Positions 1-39,465 of a stretch of 64,000 nucleotides of DNA are shown here, in pieces. Numbering within the stretch: the stretch's first letter is position 1; each line of letters opens with the position of its first letter. A model generated the notes under the pieces. That model saw nothing but the letters and a program-made list of their open reading frames with translations. It made no database searches and was not told the origin of the DNA. Origin of the DNA: Chlorophyllum brunneum (lineage: Eukaryota > Basidiomycota > Agaricomycetes > Agaricales > Agaricaceae); NCBI GenBank assembly GCA_963576785.1, contig OY756150.1, positions 1 through 64,000 of the forward strand, given 5' to 3'. The position numbers were made by a program, and so were the translations under genes.

Positions 1-118
1 ACCCTAACCCTAACCCTAACCCTAACCCTAACCCTAACCCTAACCCTAACCCTAACCCTAACCCTAACCCTAACCCTAACCCTAACCCTAACCCTAACCC
101 TAACCCTAACCCTAACCC
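1..118. repeat. Telomere, CCCTAA repeats
   Basis: About 19 perfect tandem units of CCCTAA run from the first base to about 118. This is the C-rich strand read inward from the end, so the window starts at a true chromosome terminus with the vertebrate/fungal-type TTAGGG telomere. The array stops abruptly at the sequence CCCAC and passes directly into retroelement coding sequence, with no subtelomeric spacer. Confidence 0.98.
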
Positions 119-119
119 A

Positions 120-1784
120 CTTTCCTATAGAGAAGTCAATGAGTTACAACTGACCAAACGTGTTGAGATTGAGGGGATCGTGGAGTGGTTGGAATCTTCA
201 TTCGATCACCCACAGTTACCGAAGTTCATCGGAAGTATGTTGGAGAAAGCCGCGGCGAATCCCGCCCGGCACATTCCGCAGTTCTATTGTATTCCGAAAA
301 TACATAAGAACCCCGTAAAAGGGCGGCCGATCCTGCCGTGCCATTCCGTTGTTCAAGGACCTGCCGGTAAATTTGTATCGAAAAGTCTTAAACCTGTTAT
401 TAAACAGGCGCCATTTATCATCCATGGATCCAAAGATTTGGCGATAAAATTAAGCAAGTTAAATCTTCCCCGCTATAAGCTGATAGACGGGAATGTGTAC
501 ACTTTGTACTTGATTAGCGGCGACGTCGTCGCTTTTTACCCACACGTTGACGTTGAGCTCGCTCATCAGATTGCGCGGGGGTACTTCGGCAAGTATCTCC
601 GAGAGGAGAAGTATCCACATGACGTTGTCAAGATGAACATGGAATCTATGCTATTCCAGAAATGTCTAGACGCGGCGGATTTAAACTTAATTATGCAGTT
701 CGATGGGAACTTTTATAAACAGAATCGTGGCTTAGCGATGGGCGTTGCGTCTAGTCCTGATCTGGCTAATCTCTATGGTGTATTCCACGAGTTAGATTTT
801 CCGTTTATAAATAATAATTCCCGTGTACCTTATTATGGAAGGTACATTGACGATTGTTTGGCTCTGGTGTATGCGGAGTCCGAGGAGGACGCCATCTCCG
901 AGATGTCCAAACTTAAGTTTGCGAACTGCGACATAGAATGGGTTAGCTCAGCTAGTCAAATGACTTTCCTGGACATGTTGTTGTTCTTCGATGAGAAGAA
1001 TAGGCTTCAACATAAAGCCTACAGGAAACAGCTAAACCATTTTGAGCGCATACCATGGGTCAGTTTTCACCCACTTTACGTGAAAAGAGGAACCTTCCTC
1101 GGAGAACTGTCACGGGTCGCCACTTTGTGCAGCCGGTTCCCAGATTATCTGGAAGCTTGCAAAGATGTAGCTTGCATCTACATCGCACGTGGTTACCCCG
1201 TCGGTGTTGTTAACTCGTGGTTTAAACAAAACTACAAAGCACGTTGGGAATCGAGGTTGAGAGAGACCCAAGTAGCACGGGCAGACGTGCTTGTGCTTAA
1301 AAGCGAGTATAACCCCGCATGGGATTATGTTAACGCTCAACTTCTTGAGGAACACATAAAACAAGGTTGGCTCAGCGCTTTGCAGCAATGGGCTATCACT
1401 GATTCGGATCTCCCACGGGAGATTCGACAGCGTGAAACCAGTCGGGTACCTCCGTACCAGTACGAAGCCTCGCACGCCGGCGCGCCGCCTTCTGGGGCCG
1501 CTGAGCATTTGCTTGGCCTAGGAGCGTATGGGGAATACCTTAGATTGGATAAGACTTCAGTTTTTGACAAGCGTGTGATTGTGAGCAAGAAGCGCACGAT
1601 TAATCTCTTTGACTTGTCGGCGATTTGGAAACGCCGTGTTCTTGAATTAACTGATGAAACTATATTTTATGATGACGAGACGGATATCGCCTATCATCGC
1701 GATTATGATCGCAATGTTTCATCGGGTACTTTTCCAGCTATGGACACCGGAGCTGATCCGGAGTACTATGGTCTCACGCAGTAA
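120..1784 (+). CDS. Penelope-like reverse transcriptase, 5'-truncated by the telomere
   Basis: RNA-directed DNA polymerase of the Penelope-like class. Residues are counted from the GTG at 180. Seen in order: the RPI fingers motif near 49, motif A with GDVVAFYP (Asp115), motif B with GLAMGVASSP near 184-193, motif C with YIDD (222-225), and a downstream TFLD motif. The C-terminal 200 or so residues show no GIY-YIG endonuclease. The frame is open upstream of 180 and continues without a stop through the junction into the telomere repeats, where it would read Pro-Asn over and over; no convincing native ATG is present. The true N terminus was therefore lost when the 5' end was truncated and capped. 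The RT core itself has no internal stop. Confidence 0.92.
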   Translation, partial: LSYREVNELQLTKRVEIEGIVEWLESSFDHPQLPKFIGSMLEKAAANPARHIPQFYCIPKIHKNPVKGRPILPCHSVVQGPAGKFVSKSLKPVIKQAPFIIHGSKDLAIKLSKLNLPRYKLIDGNVYTLYLISGDVVAFYPHVDVELAHQIARGYFGKYLREEKYPHDVVKMNMESMLFQKCLDAADLNLIMQFDGNFYKQNRGLAMGVASSPDLANLYGVFHELDFPFINNNSRVPYYGRYIDDCLALVYAESEEDAISEMSKLKFANCDIEWVSSASQMTFLDMLLFFDEKNRLQHKAYRKQLNHFERIPWVSFHPLYVKRGTFLGELSRVATLCSRFPDYLEACKDVACIYIARGYPVGVVNSWFKQNYKARWESRLRETQVARADVLVLKSEYNPAWDYVNAQLLEEHIKQGWLSALQQWAITDSDLPREIRQRETSRVPPYQYEASHAGAPPSGAAEHLLGLGAYGEYLRLDKTSVFDKRVIVSKKRTINLFDLSAIWKRRVLELTDETIFYDDETDIAYHRDYDRNVSSGTFPAMDTGADPEYYGLTQ

Positions 1785-2624
1785 TTCGCCATTAACTGCC
1801 CCTTTCTGATGCCTAGCTCAGACGGAGGGGGTGGGGCTGAAGAGCGCAGCAGAGCGTGTGTGGCGGTATTGGTCCCGATCTCGATACTCATCGGGTAGGA
1901 CATGCTTCTATGGCACCGAGTAACCGGCGCCGAAGGCCCTAATGCGGGCTGAGTGGATATCGGATACTATCCACGTGGGAGTGTGTGAATTTGTGGGCGA
2001 GTAACGGCCCCTCACCTTACGTCGACGCCAGGGTATGGATACCAATTGGTTAGAGGGGCACAAGCCTCTTGCCGTCCCGGGAAGGACGTTAAAATATAAA
2101 CGAGGAACTGGGAACCCGCGCCGGGGAAAACGTCGGCGTCCCTATGGGTAGACGTCGCATAGATGTCGAAAATAAGTTCCATATTTGTCAACCAACATAC
2201 CCCTCTGTCCGATTTATCTGTGACTGTCACACCTGGGGAAGGGTGCGGGGACGGCCCTTAGTGATGTAAGCGTGGGACAAGCCGCACAAGATGGCCTCTG
2301 TCCGTGCGACTAGAAACGGGGATACGAAGCCGTAGTTTAGTACCTGGACTCGTGACTTTTGCAGGGGAGCAGGCCTATTTCGGGGGCTGCTGAGACCCGC
2401 TGGTGCTTTCGCGTATCGTTTCGCGTAGTTCCATGGCCGGCCACGGCCTTAAAGGATATAAGTACCCCGGGTAGTTCCCGGTGAGAAGTTTATCCGGACC
2501 TTTAGATGGTCACCGGCGATGCCTAAAGCTCGGCCGGTGTATTGTTCGTGAAGATATTCATGGCGGTACGTACTCTATCTACTTCGAGTAAGTGGGGCAG
2601 CTTTCTAACCAGTTGGCAGTCATA

Positions 2625-2700
2625 AAAATTCCCACCCAACCCTCACCCTCACCTAACGGTGCCGCTTCGCGGACGGGTTTCGGGATTGGGTGGGAATTTT
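2625..2700 (+). other. 15-bp inverted repeat (hairpin) in the retroelement 3' region
   Basis: A perfect 15-nt arm (AAAATTCCCACCCAA, 2625-2639) is matched by its reverse complement at 2686-2700, with about 46 nt between them. The loop contains C-rich CCCTCA units and a short GC-rich inner stem (GCCGC..GCGG). It may be a structured 3' UTR element for RT recognition or a folded barrier; the role is inference. Confidence 0.75.
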
Positions 2701-2982
2701 CACTTTAGCAGATCAAAACTACGAAGATAATCTATTTTTAGAGTACACGTTTACGTAAGCAACATTACGTAAGGAGTCACGTGAGTGCTCGGTAAGCATG
2801 TTTGTCGCTGTTTACAATTTGATCCGATCAACGGAAGCTTCGGAGCTCCGTCGGACCCGAGTAACTATTTTTAGCACGCCGATTCCCATGGAATGTCAAG
2901 GAATGACAGCTGTCAACTGTCACATCGTGGGTAGAGTGGACTTAGAAGTCCTTCTATCTTAAGAACAAGGTAAAATAAACAA

Positions 2983-3056
2983 GTGCAAAGCGCCTGATGA
3001 GCTGTATATAACAGCGAAATCCTTGTGGGCTAACCCCCCACTCGATTGCGTTGCAC
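2983..3056 (+). ncRNA. Type I hammerhead ribozyme
   Basis: All core parts are present. Stem I is GTGCAA (2983-2988) with TTGCAC (3051-3056), plus CGC (2991-2993) with GCG (3048-3050), leaving an AG bulge. The core CTGATGA is at 2994-3000. Stem II is GCTG (3001-3004) with CAGC (3012-3015) around a TATATAA loop. GAAA is at 3016-3019. Stem III begins A-T, T-A, C-G (3019-3021 with 3044-3046) and continues after an internal loop as GTGGG (3025-3029) with CCCAC (3037-3041). The cleavage triplet is ATT, so the cut is predicted after 3047. Hammerhead ribozymes are known in the terminal repeats of Penelope-like elements and are thought to process their RNA. The ATT triplet is allowed but is not the fastest (GTC). 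Confidence 0.88.
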
Positions 3057-3088
3057 TACCAGCTCGTCAACTGAGTATCTCCACTATC

Positions 3089-3108
3089 AAACCCTAACCC
3101 TAACCCTA
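3089..3108. repeat. Internal telomere tract at the retroelement 3' junction
   Basis: Three CCCTAA-phase units (AACCCTAACCCTAACCCTAG) sit between the retroelement and LTR-like sequence. They mark the older chromosome end onto which the element was added; a part may be copied from the 3' end of the element RNA. Confidence 0.93.
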
Positions 3109-3430
3109 GTATTTTATGTAGTATGACTTATCTATGTTACAATATGTATATAAACCCCATGTAGCAGACCTAAGTTCTGCATCTTGTTCAATCGAACAAC
3201 TTCTTCACCATTGCCTATCTCTTTGAGTACAACACCTCAACCGATCTCATCGACTTTAGCCTCTATTCAACTGACGTTGATCGCTTTATCAATAATATCT
3301 GCCTATCCGAATTACCTTACTACAGGTATCAGATAGAAGCTTATTATCTCAGTGAGTAGACCCTACGTTCTCTCCCACTGTGTTTACTGCTGCCCCCAGC
3401 AAACAACTTGTTACGGTCGTTTCCTCAACA
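3109..3430 (+). mobile_element. LTR-like fragment truncated by telomere repeats
   Basis: The segment ends in CAACA exactly where acireductone dioxygenase homology is interrupted (compared with the copy at 59169). It has a TATATAAA box at about 3149-3156 followed by C/T-rich transcribed-looking sequence, like the promoter and R region of a fungal LTR. Read in reverse it starts TGTTGAGG, the usual LTR terminus. The other end is missing and is replaced by the telomere tract at 3108. No retroelement coding sequence is present. LTR identity is inferred from termini and position only. Confidence 0.5.
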
Positions 3431-3614
3431 GCGGGAATGACAAGGAGGTCTCCAGGTTTGACATAGAGACGAATCCAAGCGTCTGAAGGCGTTTCTATCA
3501 ACAAATAATTAGGATGATATTTACTTTGATAGTGCGCCTCTGTACACACCACGGATGTCAAAGAATCCGCTTCCATCAAGGATGTATCGGGTTTCTTCAT
3601 CCCCATGCATATGC
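3431..3614 (-). pseudogene. Acireductone dioxygenase fragment, cut by the LTR-like element
   Basis: On the minus strand, exon 3614-3550 encodes [19 protein letters not shown], with the H-x-H-x3-E metal-binding signature of acireductone dioxygenase (methionine salvage). After a short intron, exon 3494-3431 encodes the strand with PGDLLVIPA. The reading then breaks exactly at the LTR-like boundary, before the fourth ligand (the His of YHRF), so this copy cannot make a working enzyme. The 5' exons are absent. Confidence 0.88.
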
Positions 3615-9150: not shown

Positions 9151-10157
9151 GGTGGAGAGGACTGGAATCAGCTACTTTATGCTGGACTAATTATATTATT
9201 CGAGTGATAATACTAGACTTCTGTACCTGTCACTACACAGCTCCACCTACATAACTCCACTGCAATGCGCCGGCTTACCCGGTTCTTCCTGATGTGCTCC
9301 TGCCCATCAATAGTTCCTTATTTACAGAGGATGCTCATTGGGTAAACCACTTTGATGATCTTGACTCGACAGATCCGGCTTCCAGAGAGCACCGATTAGT
9401 AGTGCCATACGTATGACTCTTCTCGAGACCACCCGTCTGTGAAACGAGGATAAACGTTATTCAGAACAAGCCGCAGAGATCCGAGGCGTCATGGTGCGGT
9501 CGGTACTCTTCCACTAGCTCAAGCAGACCGTCTGCAAACAGGAGAAGTCAAGCCTTGACAACCAATGACAACATGTTCCACGCTAAGATGATCGTTACCA
9601 CTGCTTGTAGTTTGTGCGGTAGATCCGCTTCTTTCGTAAAGCACTGATTACTGAGGTTCCTGGCCTCGACGTGCCTTTGCGTTCTGCTCGTTGAGCTGCT
9701 CTCATTCTATCCGTAGTCGTCGATTTTCACTTTAAACCGTCTAGGTCGTCAGTCCCGACTTTCGATCGCCGATCGCCGACCCACTGCGCTGACAAAGAGG
9801 CTGAAGCAGCGGATAAGTATCTGGGTTTCATACCGATAGAAAGCTACCTTCCGGTCTTTAGGAGGGATGCATGTGGCGGTAATTGATTTCATCTGACGTC
9901 GAAGCCAATTTACAGGGAACCTGACACAGAATGACCCACCTGTACAACTTAGACGCCGCGGTTAGACCGACCCGTACCAGCTCCGTTTGGGATGCGTACT
10001 CCGAGATGACACTCCACAGCTGACTATTCATCGGTCTCCCCACTGCTTCATAATGGGGCTCTTGGTTACTCACAAACTCATCTCTCTCCCATAAAGTGCG
10101 CTTTGTGCCACATCCCACATCCTCACTAACTTACCTTCGCAACTTCGTGACGTCGTG
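9151..10157. other. Intergenic between the DUF3533 paralogues
   Basis: About 1 kb with no frame that matches a recognisable protein. It must include the terminator of the first paralogue and the promoter of the second; no clear TATA box is seen close to 10158. Confidence 0.4.
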
Positions 10158-12220
10158 ATGGCTCAAGAACATCGACTCACGCTAATAATCTCTTCGGATT
10201 CGGATCGTGAATACGATCAAACCGCCAACTTGAGCACACCATCGATACACCGGACATTCGAATACGATGTACCTTCACAATTCCAATTCGATGTACCTTC
10301 ACAAGCACACCTCAAGGAGAAAGGGGTGAGGCAGCTCGAGGAGACAGGGACGAGGCAGCTCGAGGAGAAAGGGGTGACGCAACTCGAGGAGCAACCGCCG
10401 AGGCACCTAGAGGTCAATTTCCCCGGGACTGCATTCTTTTCGAGACCAGAACCAAAGCCCGGATTCTTTACGAAGACGGAAGCAATGACGAGAGCGAGGA
10501 AAACATATTTAAAAGTATTCCTCAGTGGTGCCATGATCATCGTCTTTATGATATTCTCCGTGTTTCCCATTTATTGGGGTTCGCTGTGGAAAATCCCTGC
10601 TCACCCTCTGAGTGGATGGCTCGTGGTACGCTATTGGTTGGCCCGTCTGAGCTATGAGAAGAAATCTGACTTCCTGATCCAGGACTTTGATGGCGGCGAG
10701 GTCGGAGCATTCTTCGTGCAAAATATCGTGCAACACTCAGACCCCAGAATCACATGGTCGGTGAAAACCCATGACCAAGTCCCTAGTCCCGAGGCGTTGG
10801 AATATGACATGACGGAAGAGCGGGCGTGGATGGCTATCGCTGGTGTGTTCCTTTATCTCCACTCTGCATGAGTATTCTAAATCACCTTATAGTGAATCCT
10901 GGTGCTTCAAGTCGGCTTAATGCGTCGATTCAGGACCCAAGCATTCCATATGATGCGAGTCTTGCTGTGACAGCCTACGGAGTTGAAGCTAGAAATGAAA
11001 ATGCTTTGTGAGTGGCTACGACTCTGTCCTTCGGTATGGTGCCACTAAACGATCGACTCTAGCCGCTCTTTGCTTCACCCGGCAGTGAGTCGACTCTTCG
11101 TTGATACCCTAACTAAGTGCTCACATTATCCAGGTTGTCCAAACATTAGATATATTATTTCAACAATTCACTCTTCAGCATACACAACGTGTCGCTTCGT
11201 CTGTCTCGGCGACATCACTAGCAAACATTGTTTCAACTTCACCACAACTGGTCACTGCTCCCTTGAATTATAAGTTCGATAATGTTCGTCCCTTCGATCA
11301 ACCTGTGTAGGTGTTTGTTGCTCTAGACTGCTCTGCGTTCTCAACTCGTGATTAGCGCTTCAGCAGCTAGTTTCGTGGGCTTAATTTACATCTTGATTCT
11401 TTCGTTCTATATTGTCGTAAGTATTTATTTGCCCTGTCGGTTTGTCACTTCTCCTAAACCACTATCCATAGATGATCGGAGATGGCGCGCGCAATGCTTC
11501 TGGTTTATCCAAGAGTCTACCATTGGGTGCCCTAGTACGGCTTCGCCTCATATCATCCATGTCTGCATATTTCGTTCTTTCCGTGAGTTCCGCAGGATCA
11601 ACATTAAAGTATTTTCGCTCACGTCGCCCCCCTATAGTTGATGTATTCACTCGTTAATCTTGCTTTCCTAACCGACTTTACACGGCATTTTGGAAAGTCT
11701 GGTTTCGTGGTTTTCTGGATGCTTAACTGGGCTGGGATGGGGGCTGTGTACGTGAACGCTTGATTTCCATCTTTTTCCTCCACTAACATCGGAAAACAGG
11801 GGGCTGGCCCTCGAAGCTATCGTAACACTCCTGACAGTTCGTTTCATTCCATTCTTCATGTTGTTCTGGATTATTTGTAAGGATACTCCACCTACTCCGT
11901 GACAATACCGTGCTGATATGGTATAGGTAATGTCTCTGTGTGTGTGTTCCCCATCCAAACCCTTCCGAAAATATATCATTACGGGTATGCTGCACCGTTC
12001 TACAACGTATCCCAGGGGTTTAGGACGATTGTTTTCAATACGAAGAATCAGCGTAAGCAAGCTACAGTTACTTTTTCAACATCATTTGTGCTCATTTTTG
12101 CGCTCTGCAGTTGGTCTCAACTTTGGTATCCTCATTTCATGGATAATTATATCCTGCATCACCATGCCGGTCTTTCAATGGTGGGCTATGAGGAGAGACA
12201 GACGCGCAGCGAGGGTGTAA
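10158..12220 (+). CDS. DUF3533/SNG1-family multispanning membrane protein, copy 2
   Basis: Paralogue of the preceding gene with the same order of motifs: first helix around VFLSGAMIIVFMIFSVFPIYWG, then GWLVV, DFDGGEVGAFF, WMAIA joined to VNPGASSRL, YDASLAV and EARNENAL, then helix-rich exons and HYGYAAPFYNVSQGFRTIVF before the last exon, which ends WWAMRRDRRAARV at TAA 12218-12220. ATG 10158 is preferred to the in-frame GTG at 10155. Unlike copy 1, its N-terminal cytosolic region is long and carries an imperfect tandem repeat (QLEEKGV type). Introns are about 50 nt. Same direction and same architecture point to a tandem duplication that has diverged widely. Confidence 0.87.
10309..10420 (+). 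repeat. Imperfect tandem 33-nt repeats in the N-terminal region
   Basis: Four successive degenerate units encode xLEEKGVRQ-like 11-residue blocks (LKEKGVRQ, LEETGTRQ, LEEKGVTQ, LEEQPPRH). The first units share nucleotide runs such as AGGCAGCTCGAGGAGA. Likely a charged, flexible or coiled extension subject to copy-number change. Confidence 0.8.
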
Positions 12221-35957: not shown

Positions 35958-36903
35958 TTGTATATGGAAACAAGAATTCTTTGCGGATTGGTGTGCGGAG
36001 TGAAGTCATAATCTTTCTTGTCCGTGGGCCCTTCCCATCCTTCACCCTTGTCATCTCACAAAACGATATGGATGGACGTTTTGACATTTTGGAGTATCGG
36101 TCAAATTTTTGAACGTGCTGTGATAGCGAGCGCTGACTCCCAGAGCTCAATCGAGGTTTACCCACCCACATCTAACTACGTCTAAATTTCTTTTCTCACT
36201 CACCGTTCCCGTGATCGGATAGTCATCCCAAGTGAGGCATACCAGTCGTGACTGACAACAGTACACTGGCTGCTCATATTGAAACAGCCTCAGGAACCAC
36301 ACGTATCACTGCCATCCCTAGACAGCGATATCTTTGATTCCCACGTCAAGATGGGCGCCAGTGTGATATCTACCTGTTGACAAACGACAATCATCGAAAT
36401 GCCCTTAGTGACGCTCCACACCAAAAATACACAAGCAGAACGTCTATTGGTTGTATGAACCTTACCCCGCCTTCCGCCAAGCCTGTAGCCTATTTTTTTT
36501 TTTTAATTTCGGCGCTAGACTTGCACGTTTCTCTCAGGTCAAATTCGGTTGGACAGTGCGCGCGTACGCTTCATCAAGGATGCTCATTGCTGATATTGGG
36601 GTTTATAGTTGGAATAGGGAAGATTTCGGAGTGAGGCAGTAGCGCCAGCCGTCGTTCAAGAGATGTCAGTCAGTCAGATCATACAGGTGAAGAGTTCCAT
36701 CTATCTTTGACTTCAGGGATCCTTATCCTTCATACTTTTAGAAAGTTCATGGAGAGTTCTTAATCGCACATTAAGACCCATTCACTTCATCAAGAAAATC
36801 TCTCTGGTAGAGTTGGACCGTAAGTATACTACACCAGACGTAAACTATCATCCAAATTAATTAAATCTTGCAGATTCTTTACTTTCTTTTACTTTCGAAC
36901 AAA
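35958..36903. other. Intergenic before the HET-like gene
   Basis: About 950 bases without gene support. The bases just before the start are pyrimidine-rich (TTTACTTTCTTTTACTTTCG); a TTGCAG at 36868-36873 could be a 3' splice site of a 5' UTR intron. Confidence 0.4.
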
Positions 36904-39465
36904 ATGCAGTCTTTTCAAACAGATCCGCTCCTTCCGTTCGCAGAAAAACGAATACCTACGCTACGAAAGGCGTGGTCCACCGTCACCACACACGCACGGA
37001 TCGGTCGTCTAATTCGTGAAGATGAAGGCGTCCGAGGTCCTCTTTGGTTCGGGTCTGACCCAGCTAGCCCTTATCACGTCCTTGCCAACGTCCTTCGTCT
37101 TATATGTGCCATACTCATGGCACCCGCGTGGATGTGGTTTATACCAAGGAACCAGGAATGGTTTAAAAACAAGTTCCTTCGACGGTTTTTCTGGCCACAC
37201 GAACTTCCTCAAACACCTGAATCTATACTTGTTGCTGGTTCTAGTTCCCATTCCGGCACGGATTCTACGTGGAGTACAGAGAAGAAAGGAGAATACGCTG
37301 CGAGTCCGTCAAAGCCGAGGTGGTTGATGGAGGTCCAGTTTCGTGGAGAGGAAATTGCAGGTCAGCGACAGGTTCGCTATGAAGATGTTAAAAGACGTGT
37401 TGAAGACGGGGGATATACGGCTATCAGCTATCCAATGAAGAGTGCTGAACAATTGTTCACCGAGTCTGGTTTGCGTTTGGATCCTCAACCCGAGTATCAA
37501 TCAGCTTCAGGGGGAGGGGTGAAGTACAATCTTAGGAATCGGAAGAAGATCACGCAGGCTGTATTGAACGAGTACGCTAGAGCTCGAACGACGAGTAAAG
37601 GGAGGACAGACGGAGTGGAGTATGTGTGGTTGGATGAGTTATGTCTCACGGATGAGGGCGTAACGAATGAAGTCGAGGCGCGAGCCCAGAGGATTCTGGG
37701 TTTAGGACAACTGGCAGATATATTCCGAGCTGCGAGGAGAGTTGTTGTGTTTTGCCATATTACCGATTGCAACCATACAGGGATCGAGTGTCCTTGGGGC
37801 AGTAGATTATTCACGCTCGCCGAGGTGATGCATACGTCAAGAATCCTACAGATGACGAGGACATACGAGTCTGACGAAGATGAGGCTCACGTCGTCAGTG
37901 TCCTCACTGCTATGACTGGTCAAGATTTTCGTACCGACATTATGGCCAAGGCGGCGGAAGCCAAGATGTGGCATCTCTACAACATAATGCAACACTCAAC
38001 GCATTCTGGCGGTATCTCGTGGCAGTCTGTTATTCACTCCCTCATCCTCGACGTTCTACGCCGCGATGAAGCTGATAACTCCACGTCTCATAATTTTGTG
38101 GGCAAAGCTCTGAATGGTCTCCTACCTCGCGGAGCCGACCCGGCCGATTTACAAGGTACCAACGGGTGGGCGGATTTGGCATGGTTGTTGGAGTTGAACC
38201 AAGGGTATTATAATGCCGCTATGCTCACTGCTGTGTGTAAGCTCGCAGACCCGGAGGTGAATGGGTATAGATGGTGGGGAAAACCAATCACACCAAAGGA
38301 AGGATCCGAGCGTCTCGAACCACTCGTCACCGCCACCCCCGCTAAATTCCGCGACGAACTTACCAACTCCACCGTTCCCGTACTTTCGCTCATTGGACCA
38401 CAGGTGATTGACTTGGATCACATGTTTCAACGTGATTCTGGAGCATTGGAGCGTCAACCCGAGATGGAGGCTCTTCGTTTCTGGGGACTCGTTGGTTGGT
38501 TCGTTATCTCAATCATTGGGTTTATTTTGGTGGCGGCTATTGGAGGCGCTGGTATAATCATCTACTGGGTCTCGAGTATACTCTTCGTCGGACTCCAGCT
38601 GGTGGTTGGGACGATCTATGTGGAGAAAGATAAATGGGTTGTGATTGAAGATTGGCAAGCACCAGGACACGACGCTTATCGCCTCCTTCAGTCCCGGGAT
38701 CCCACTTACACGAGAAAAATCGAATGGGATTATTCGAAACAGCTGATACCGAAATGGGAGGTCCCGCACATGATGGAACCAAGGAAAAATCGAGGAGCCG
38801 TCAATCCCTATCCCGTAACATTGATCGACCTTCACACAGGCGTGTTTGTGAAAACGCTAGTCACGACCCGACCGAACAGTATGGCACCACTTGCAATTCA
38901 TGGGAGTGGTATTACGTGCATGCTCCTGGATCGTGATACTTCTCTACAAATGCCCACGATTTCAGTCAAAGCGGGAATGACGAACCTTCCACCGCGTGCT
39001 CTATCGCAAACGAAACGAGTCGGAAATGTGTACGTTGGAGGGAATGCCTTCAAACAAGGGAAAATTCGGATTTCCTTTGGTACTTGGTTGCGCGCAACGC
39101 TCTCGGGTGTGGATGTAGACGACGCAAGAAAACATGCATCTGCCGCTACGCGACTCGCAAAAAAGGCTGATGATTTGGAGATGCAAGATGTGTCGTTGGA
39201 AGGTGATCTTGGGCCTGTATTACAGCAGACCGTTAGTTTCTCTTCGACCGCACCAATACTCAAAGCCAAGAAGCTTCCATATAAATCCGGGACGGATTCG
39301 TCGAATGGTACTGTCGTTGCCATCGATCCTGCAGAATTCGGTGGGAAGGGAGATGACTCGGTGGAGAGTGATATATCACTTGCGGGGATGCAGCCGCCTG
39401 CTCGATATCGTGGGATCCCGAAAACCCAGTGGTTCCCAGACAGGAGCGGAGCTAAATATGTCTAA
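36904..39465 (+). CDS. HET-like domain protein with membrane segments
   Basis: A single 853-codon exon from ATG 36904 (MQSFQTDPLLPFAEKRIP). A hydrophobic segment VLRLICAILMAPAWMWFI lies near residue 70, followed by blocks that resemble the fungal heterokaryon-incompatibility fold: GGYTAISYPMKSAEQLF, then VEYVWLDELCLTDEG (compare the xxIWIDALCINQ block) and LADIFRAARRVVVFCH. Further on, WFVISIIGFILVAAIGGAGI and a second hydrophobic run (about residues 535-580) predict two membrane helices before a C-terminal domain. HET proteins act in self/non-self recognition; here the match is to a divergent basidiomycete family and the function is inference. Confidence 0.7.
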   Translation: MQSFQTDPLLPFAEKRIPTLRKAWSTVTTHARIGRLIREDEGVRGPLWFGSDPASPYHVLANVLRLICAILMAPAWMWFIPRNQEWFKNKFLRRFFWPHELPQTPESILVAGSSSHSGTDSTWSTEKKGEYAASPSKPRWLMEVQFRGEEIAGQRQVRYEDVKRRVEDGGYTAISYPMKSAEQLFTESGLRLDPQPEYQSASGGGVKYNLRNRKKITQAVLNEYARARTTSKGRTDGVEYVWLDELCLTDEGVTNEVEARAQRILGLGQLADIFRAARRVVVFCHITDCNHTGIECPWGSRLFTLAEVMHTSRILQMTRTYESDEDEAHVVSVLTAMTGQDFRTDIMAKAAEAKMWHLYNIMQHSTHSGGISWQSVIHSLILDVLRRDEADNSTSHNFVGKALNGLLPRGADPADLQGTNGWADLAWLLELNQGYYNAAMLTAVCKLADPEVNGYRWWGKPITPKEGSERLEPLVTATPAKFRDELTNSTVPVLSLIGPQVIDLDHMFQRDSGALERQPEMEALRFWGLVGWFVISIIGFILVAAIGGAGIIIYWVSSILFVGLQLVVGTIYVEKDKWVVIEDWQAPGHDAYRLLQSRDPTYTRKIEWDYSKQLIPKWEVPHMMEPRKNRGAVNPYPVTLIDLHTGVFVKTLVTTRPNSMAPLAIHGSGITCMLLDRDTSLQMPTISVKAGMTNLPPRALSQTKRVGNVYVGGNAFKQGKIRISFGTWLRATLSGVDVDDARKHASAATRLAKKADDLEMQDVSLEGDLGPVLQQTVSFSSTAPILKAKKLPYKSGTDSSNGTVVAIDPAEFGGKGDDSVESDISLAGMQPPARYRGIPKTQWFPDRSGAKYV

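Follow-up and report, generated by a model that had tools for sequence, protein, structure and literature searches.

A probable endonuclease-minus Penelope-like retroelement with a CCCTAA tract at its inner end, attached to chromosome ends of Chlorophyllum brunneum

Results

The left end of contig C12 (OY756150.1) in the Chlorophyllum brunneum assembly GCA_963576785.1 (38.9 Mb in 14 contigs) carries a reverse transcriptase (RT) gene directly beneath a telomere. We analyzed this locus in a window of 64,000 nucleotides (C12:1-64000); the gene lies on its forward strand, as do all parts of the element described here, and very probably belongs to an endonuclease-minus Penelope-like element (PLE). 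A terminal telomere tract, (CCCTAA)n, occupies positions 1..118 (Tandem Repeats Finder: period 6, 19.7 copies, 100% matches) and caps the truncated 5' end of the element; at the join, 2 bp (CC) are in common with a longer copy on contig C8. The RT frame, 5'-truncated to 554 codons plus a stop, follows at 120..1784 and is in frame with the 1015-codon C8 copy. Its GDVVAFYP, MGVASSP and YIDD motifs lie in a reading frame that is uninterrupted between window base 3 and its stop codon at 1784, and the first-pass annotation, which described such a frame running into CCCTAA repeats, had both motifs and coordinates right. That the frame stays open through the telomere is nevertheless uninformative, since a CCCTAA array lacks stops in two of its three frames (reading PNPN or LTLT); in the C11 right copy the telomere falls in the third frame and brings stops. 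Beyond the gene lie a 3' noncoding region (1785..3091) and a 17-nt CCCTAA tail (3092..3108; CCCTAACCCTAACCCTA), with unrelated flanking DNA from 3109.

A whole-assembly search with the 554-aa frame returned nine RT copies (9/9 candidates scored), on C1, C2, C4, C8, C9, C11 (both ends), C12 and C13. A second search, with the 3' part, returned eleven copies: one at each of those nine ends, plus a further copy at C1 left and, at C9 right, a stub of 474 bp. The arrangement in the window is thus not a chance observation, and both counts are lower bounds. All copies found (9/9 RT, 11/11 3' part) are at contig ends, within 5.1 kb of them, with the 5' end outward. The first-pass annotation had read this orientation as that of end addition and had pointed to other chromosome ends as the place to look for the same element, and every copy found bears it out. 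Its further reading, 5' truncation followed by telomere capping, agrees with the nine of eleven copies whose 5' end is capped by a terminal telomere tract; the other two are capped by the tail of a second copy. Truncation points differ in all eleven, those of the C4 left and C13 left copies lying 2 bp apart and so possibly reflecting one event.

The longest assembled copy (C8) is about 4.4 kb, with a single frame of 1015 codons after the telomere and its 5' end missing. Judged against the 1191-aa Agaricus bisporus protein P0242, with which its alignment begins at residue 99, it lacks about 98 N-terminal residues. None of ten matches at E ≤ 1 reached the first 98 residues of P0242, and no full-length copy is assembled. 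Source copies may reside at the telomere-less ends, in another strain, or nowhere now.

We read 27 contig ends: 20 to 10 kb (one of them from C14), C12 left through the window, and six right ends to 1 kb. CCCTAA tracts cap 23 of the 26 nuclear ends, the right ends of C5, C12 and C13 being without one; neither these three 1-kb ends nor the C8 left end held ribosomal DNA or another Rfam family at the gathering score. Terminal tracts are about 97-118 bp long, that of C9 right running 90 bp before variant repeats. Together with one tract inside C12 there are 24 telomere tracts, of which nine bear the element; no copy was found on the other 15. The inner tract (C12:1860549-1860667) has left-end orientation, directly follows a run of N and lies 277 kb short of the right end of C12, itself without a telomere, with no element in the 264 bases read beyond the tract. 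The N run could be a gap or withheld letters; if it is a gap, the final piece of C12 was probably assembled in reverse orientation.

The CCCTAA tail begins 43-44 nt past a predicted ribozyme cut in 11/11 copies, and its inner end is variable (perfect runs of 9-23 nt; about 17-29 nt with imperfect repeats, by eye). Flanks inside the tail differ between copies, and shared bases at the joins number at most about three (by eye). The tail sits on non-telomeric DNA in 8/8 testable junctions. Six of these are among the nine chromosomal junctions (C11 right, C2 left, C4 left, C13 left, C11 left and C9 right), where a paralogous subtelomere spans the break without telomere repeats; the weak spots of this support are a match of only 67 bp for C4 left and of 78% for C2 left. 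The other two are the tandem pairs on C1 left and C9 right (2/2), in which the tail adjoins a truncated copy and no telomere of greater length separates the two. In 216 kb of contig ends, interior tracts of at least two CCCTAA units number twelve, eleven of them element tails and one a 108-bp tract on C4. Because the short proximal tract has one fixed start in all eleven copies, is short in all of them and adjoins non-telomeric DNA in 8/8 junctions, it most likely belongs to the element as its 3' tail and is not the remnant of a former telomere. The second short telomere tract that the first-pass annotation placed at the end of the unit is therefore present, but is most likely part of the element and not a separate telomere.

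On C1 left, the inner copy begins with GTCCTACCCGAT-ACTC-ATCGGGTAGGAC in place of the C8-copy sequence, an inverted repeat whose 12-bp arms enclose a 4-nt loop, of which a free 3' end that snapped back and was extended is the simplest cause. Directly under the telomere of C9 left (L029, 115-138) there is likewise a perfect inverted repeat, CTGACACCAG-GGGT-CTGGTGTCAG, possibly a second snapped-back end, here without an element. The 108-bp interior CCCTAA tract on C4 left (L024, 4559-4666) occupies the position of the terminal telomere of C3 right (C4 4559-5055 aligns with C3 right 1-508); outside the tract lie 339 bp of other subtelomeric sequence and then the element. This tract is apparently an old telomere buried by a later rearrangement of the end.

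All nine RT frames are open and without internal gaps. The ratio of nonsynonymous to synonymous differences (pN/pS), pooled over 36 copy pairs, is 0.09, and distinct variant codons comprise 76 synonymous versus 29 nonsynonymous. These open frames and substitution patterns indicate that the copies derive from intact sources and not from dead, truncated ones; selection of this kind is unlikely to act on the truncated copies, which would thus have descended separately. The 3' noncoding region is also constrained, as it varies less than four-fold degenerate sites in an alignment of nine copies: 31 of 1285 columns versus 10 of 125 four-fold sites in codons common to all nine (Fisher p 0.002), or 29/1285 versus 20/227 when the C2 left copy is left out (p 7e-6), with p values that are optimistic because mosaic 3' haplotypes make sites non-independent. 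The stretch between ribozyme candidate and tail (3071..3091) is a hypervariable linker, with 7/20 columns varying among nine copies, a variability exceeding that of both the remaining 3' region (p 6e-7) and the four-fold sites (p 0.003). Its changes are mostly C/T, while elsewhere the 3' region hardly varies. The linker may reflect low-fidelity copying close to where synthesis starts, the sole explanation we offer.

The RT part of the protein is encoded at 120..1262 (palm, fingers and thumb; model residues 1-381; AlphaFold2 mean predicted local distance difference test (pLDDT) score 83.9), and structures of telomerase and of group II-type RTs match it. The fold predicted for the 554-aa frame is telomerase-like by fold comparison (VIA-align), which gives little coverage past residue 381. 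In the C-terminal region (1263..1781), which that comparison barely covers, Pfam recognized no endonuclease. The full 1015-aa model has a mean pLDDT of 74.5 and long N-terminal helices. RVT_1 was the only Pfam family found, weakly, in the 554-aa frame (E 0.031) and the 1015-aa copy (E 0.063). Single-protein sequence searches of solved structures gave one match, to a non-RT enzyme (E 0.64), in one search and none in the other. A profile search gave nine chains up to E 10 (best E 0.00019), named Drt, retron, group II-like or unnamed RNA-directed DNA polymerase, with no telomerase among them.

The RT frame has 394 relatives at E ≤ 0.001, with identities of 35-56% among the 120 listed. The nearest long relative found, protein P0241 of Agaricus bisporus var. 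burnettii, is 50% identical over 95% of the 1015-aa copy and is the sister of the element RT in a tree (100/98 support). No named Coprina sequence is among the matches listed for either the RT frame or the 1015-aa copy. Pfam recognized no GIY-YIG domain in the C8 copy, and none appeared at E ≤ 1 in any of seven long relatives (7/7), a set that includes two A. bisporus proteins. The whole assembly gave two GIY-YIG matches, both on the 59-kb contig C14, which is without telomere repeats and is taken to be mitochondrial. These results are in line with the first-pass statement that no GIY-YIG motif follows the RT.

A type-I hammerhead ribozyme candidate lies at 2982..3057, with core CTGATGA at 2994-3000, stem II at 3001-3005/3011-3015, GAAA at 3016-3019 and cleavage predicted at 3047/3048. 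A descriptor of the three stems, composed once the motif had been noticed, matches 11/11 copies and nothing else in 432 kb (27 ends, both strands), and finds 0 matches in 4.32 Mb of Markov-random sequence. As judged from sequence, the element carries a ribozyme-like motif near its end, as Penelope-like elements do. A looser core pattern also hits two places outside the element, one at C6 left and one at C4 right; both fail the three-stem descriptor. Farther upstream, a strong hairpin whose arms, one C-rich and one G-rich, are telomere-like is predicted at 2625..2700 (minimum free energy -42 kcal/mol, z -6.29, 0/200 shuffles), a stretch picked after a sliding fold scan. Among the 16 windows of the 3' region in that scan, 2610-2759 alone stands out (z -4.47); three others reach z between -2.1 and -2.7, as do two of eight coding control windows at -2.5 to -2.8. 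In the distal stub on C9 right, truncation falls at the start of this hairpin.

Elsewhere in the window, 24-bp minisatellite arrays (10256-10413) lie within an open frame at 10095-10871. An 866-aa frame at 36865-39465 has relatives, in Agaricus and its relatives, that are named heterokaryon incompatibility domain-containing; the closest match to an 854-aa query from 36901-39462 is from Agaricus bisporus var. burnettii (63%), the same fungus as for the RT, so that the host is Agaricus-like.

Discussion

We are highly confident that the element is an endonuclease-minus PLE that is specific for, and attached to, the ends of chromosomes. It is of an already known kind, that of Athena, Coprina and Terminons, and its junctions are unusually informative. 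As a whole, the data are probably best explained by a truncated endonuclease-minus PLE whose reverse transcription is primed by broken or unfinished ends, begins within a CCCUAA tail and is followed by capping. The element RNA would end in, or contain, a (CCCUAA)3-4 tail downstream of the hammerhead ribozyme. Reverse transcription could be primed inside this tail, with few or no matching bases, by the free 3' terminus of either a chromosome break or an earlier copy left incomplete, and synthesis would proceed inward along the RNA and stop early. The naked, truncated end would subsequently be capped by telomerase, or else might serve as primer for the next element, producing tandem copies. As to the specific proposal that synthesis starts internally, at naked ends, on a tail that the element itself carries, we lean slightly in favor. 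More tentatively, the element could be a self-contained chromosome-healing device in which the 3' RNA supplies its own telomere seed as the start of reverse transcription and primes from any naked 3' end; it would then tag breaks that telomerase has not yet reached.

Several observations weigh against this account. Neither an intact copy nor a transcript nor any activity was observed. In the ranking of fold Z scores, group II intron RTs tie with telomerase, and membership of the PLE clade, which we consider likely, draws on fold, motifs and context. The hammerhead candidate scores only 14.8 bits against Rfam HH9 (E 0.28 with 131 bases scanned; gathering score 52), an Rfam scan of window positions 1-3600 at E ≤ 5 misses the motif, and the hammerhead fold is not the minimum free energy structure because part of the core pairs otherwise. 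Two tails (C11 right and C9 right inner) hold imperfect repeats, and three of the nine chromosomal junctions (C12 left, the window's own; C1 left inner; C8 left) are without a paralog for comparison. Furthermore, brief telomerase healing before attachment is possible, because paralogous empty sites are not the actual ancestral ends.

Alternatively, the element RNA may anneal to a G-rich overhang of a few repeats, left by an eroded telomere or added by telomerase at a break, such that the 17-29 nt tract is at least partly host telomere. This is the known model for Terminon-type elements, as far as the consulted part of that account goes (PMC6431247), and it sits comfortably with the host's telomerase domain matches and with tracts that are CCCTAA repeats with variable inner ends. 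We nonetheless regard it as rather unlikely. Terminal tracts are about 97-118 bp, whereas the eleven inner tracts are about 17-29 nt, a difference with a chance of about 6e-11 under uniform erosion over 0-110 bp (a rough null with lengths taken by eye); moreover, the tail starts identically in 11/11 copies and no longer telomere lies between tandem copies.

Three further explanations were rejected on the junction, selection, telomerase and copy evidence. Spread by subtelomeric recombination or break-induced replication instead of reverse transcription would fit the many blocks common to subtelomeres and the haplotype-like mosaicism of the 3' region, but it is very improbable given that the inner boundary is the tail in 11/11 copies while flanks and truncation points differ, that purifying selection is strong among truncated copies, and that none of the nine element-bearing ends compared share flanks directly past the tail. 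Marginally less probable still is an element domesticated or required for end maintenance, like HeT-A/TART in Drosophila. HeT-A and TART are retroelements of the non-long terminal repeat class that stand in for telomerase; like the C. brunneum element, they are attached to ends with the 3' end inward. The terminal position of every copy found and the purifying selection could be read in this way. However, HeT-A/TART replace telomerase, whereas in C. brunneum telomerase RNA-binding-domain matches occur on C5 and telomere tracts cap 23/26 nuclear ends, with 15 of the 24 tracts having no copy found; the first-pass proposal that the element took part in end maintenance is not upheld for the same reasons. 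An assembly artefact at the contig end is the least probable of all: the assembly does have faults, namely three telomere-less nuclear ends and the tract inside C12 beside an N run, yet the eleven copies are distinct in sequence, truncation and flanks.

Reverse transcription from a self-carried tail can be set beside several known systems. Endonuclease-minus PLEs were reportedly described by Gladyshev and Arkhipova in 2007 as Athena in rotifers and Coprina in fungi; later accounts cite that work (PMC6431247, PMC5718144). Both encode an RT without endonuclease, reside at chromosome ends and are 5'-truncated by telomere repeats. The C. brunneum element shares their traits: no GIY-YIG recognized, location at ends, 3' end inward, truncation and head-to-tail stacking. 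In Agaricus bisporus, which is of the same host group, PLEs are closely linked to telomeres (PMC7473861); the portion of that account consulted is without data on junctions, tail, ribozyme or selection, unlike the present analysis. Terminons of bdelloid rotifers, in the sections seen, have a 3' hammerhead motif followed by reverse-complement telomere repeats and form 5'-truncated head-to-tail arrays at telomeres (PMC6431247). The element described here resembles them in its ribozyme motif, telomere-complement 3' end and truncated, head-to-tail telomeric copies, while Terminons extend to 40 kb with accessory open reading frames (PMC6431247) and our longest copy is about 4.4 kb, with one frame and its 5' end missing. 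PAc, a PLE of Anolis, is described in the excerpt consulted as starting reverse transcription at an internal AC-rich stem loop without homology to target DNA, leaving a 'tail' (PMC11167929). This start lies downstream of a hammerhead motif, a geometry that the present tail resembles, although PAc has a GIY-YIG endonuclease and AT-rich insertion sites (PMC11167929), in contrast to a telomere-complement tail and a free-end target. Within the parts of the PLE literature covered, we found no account of a fixed tail joined directly to naked DNA.

If the element does carry its own seed, its constrained 1.3-kb 3' RNA would serve it as telomerase RNA serves telomerase. Whether a telomere overhang is needed, or priming can occur on any broken end, bears on the relation between telomerase and telomeric PLEs. 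C. brunneum offers eleven near-identical copies within a single assembly, together with junctions that can be read, empty sites in paralogous subtelomeres and one end that probably snapped back, and this makes the question directly testable.

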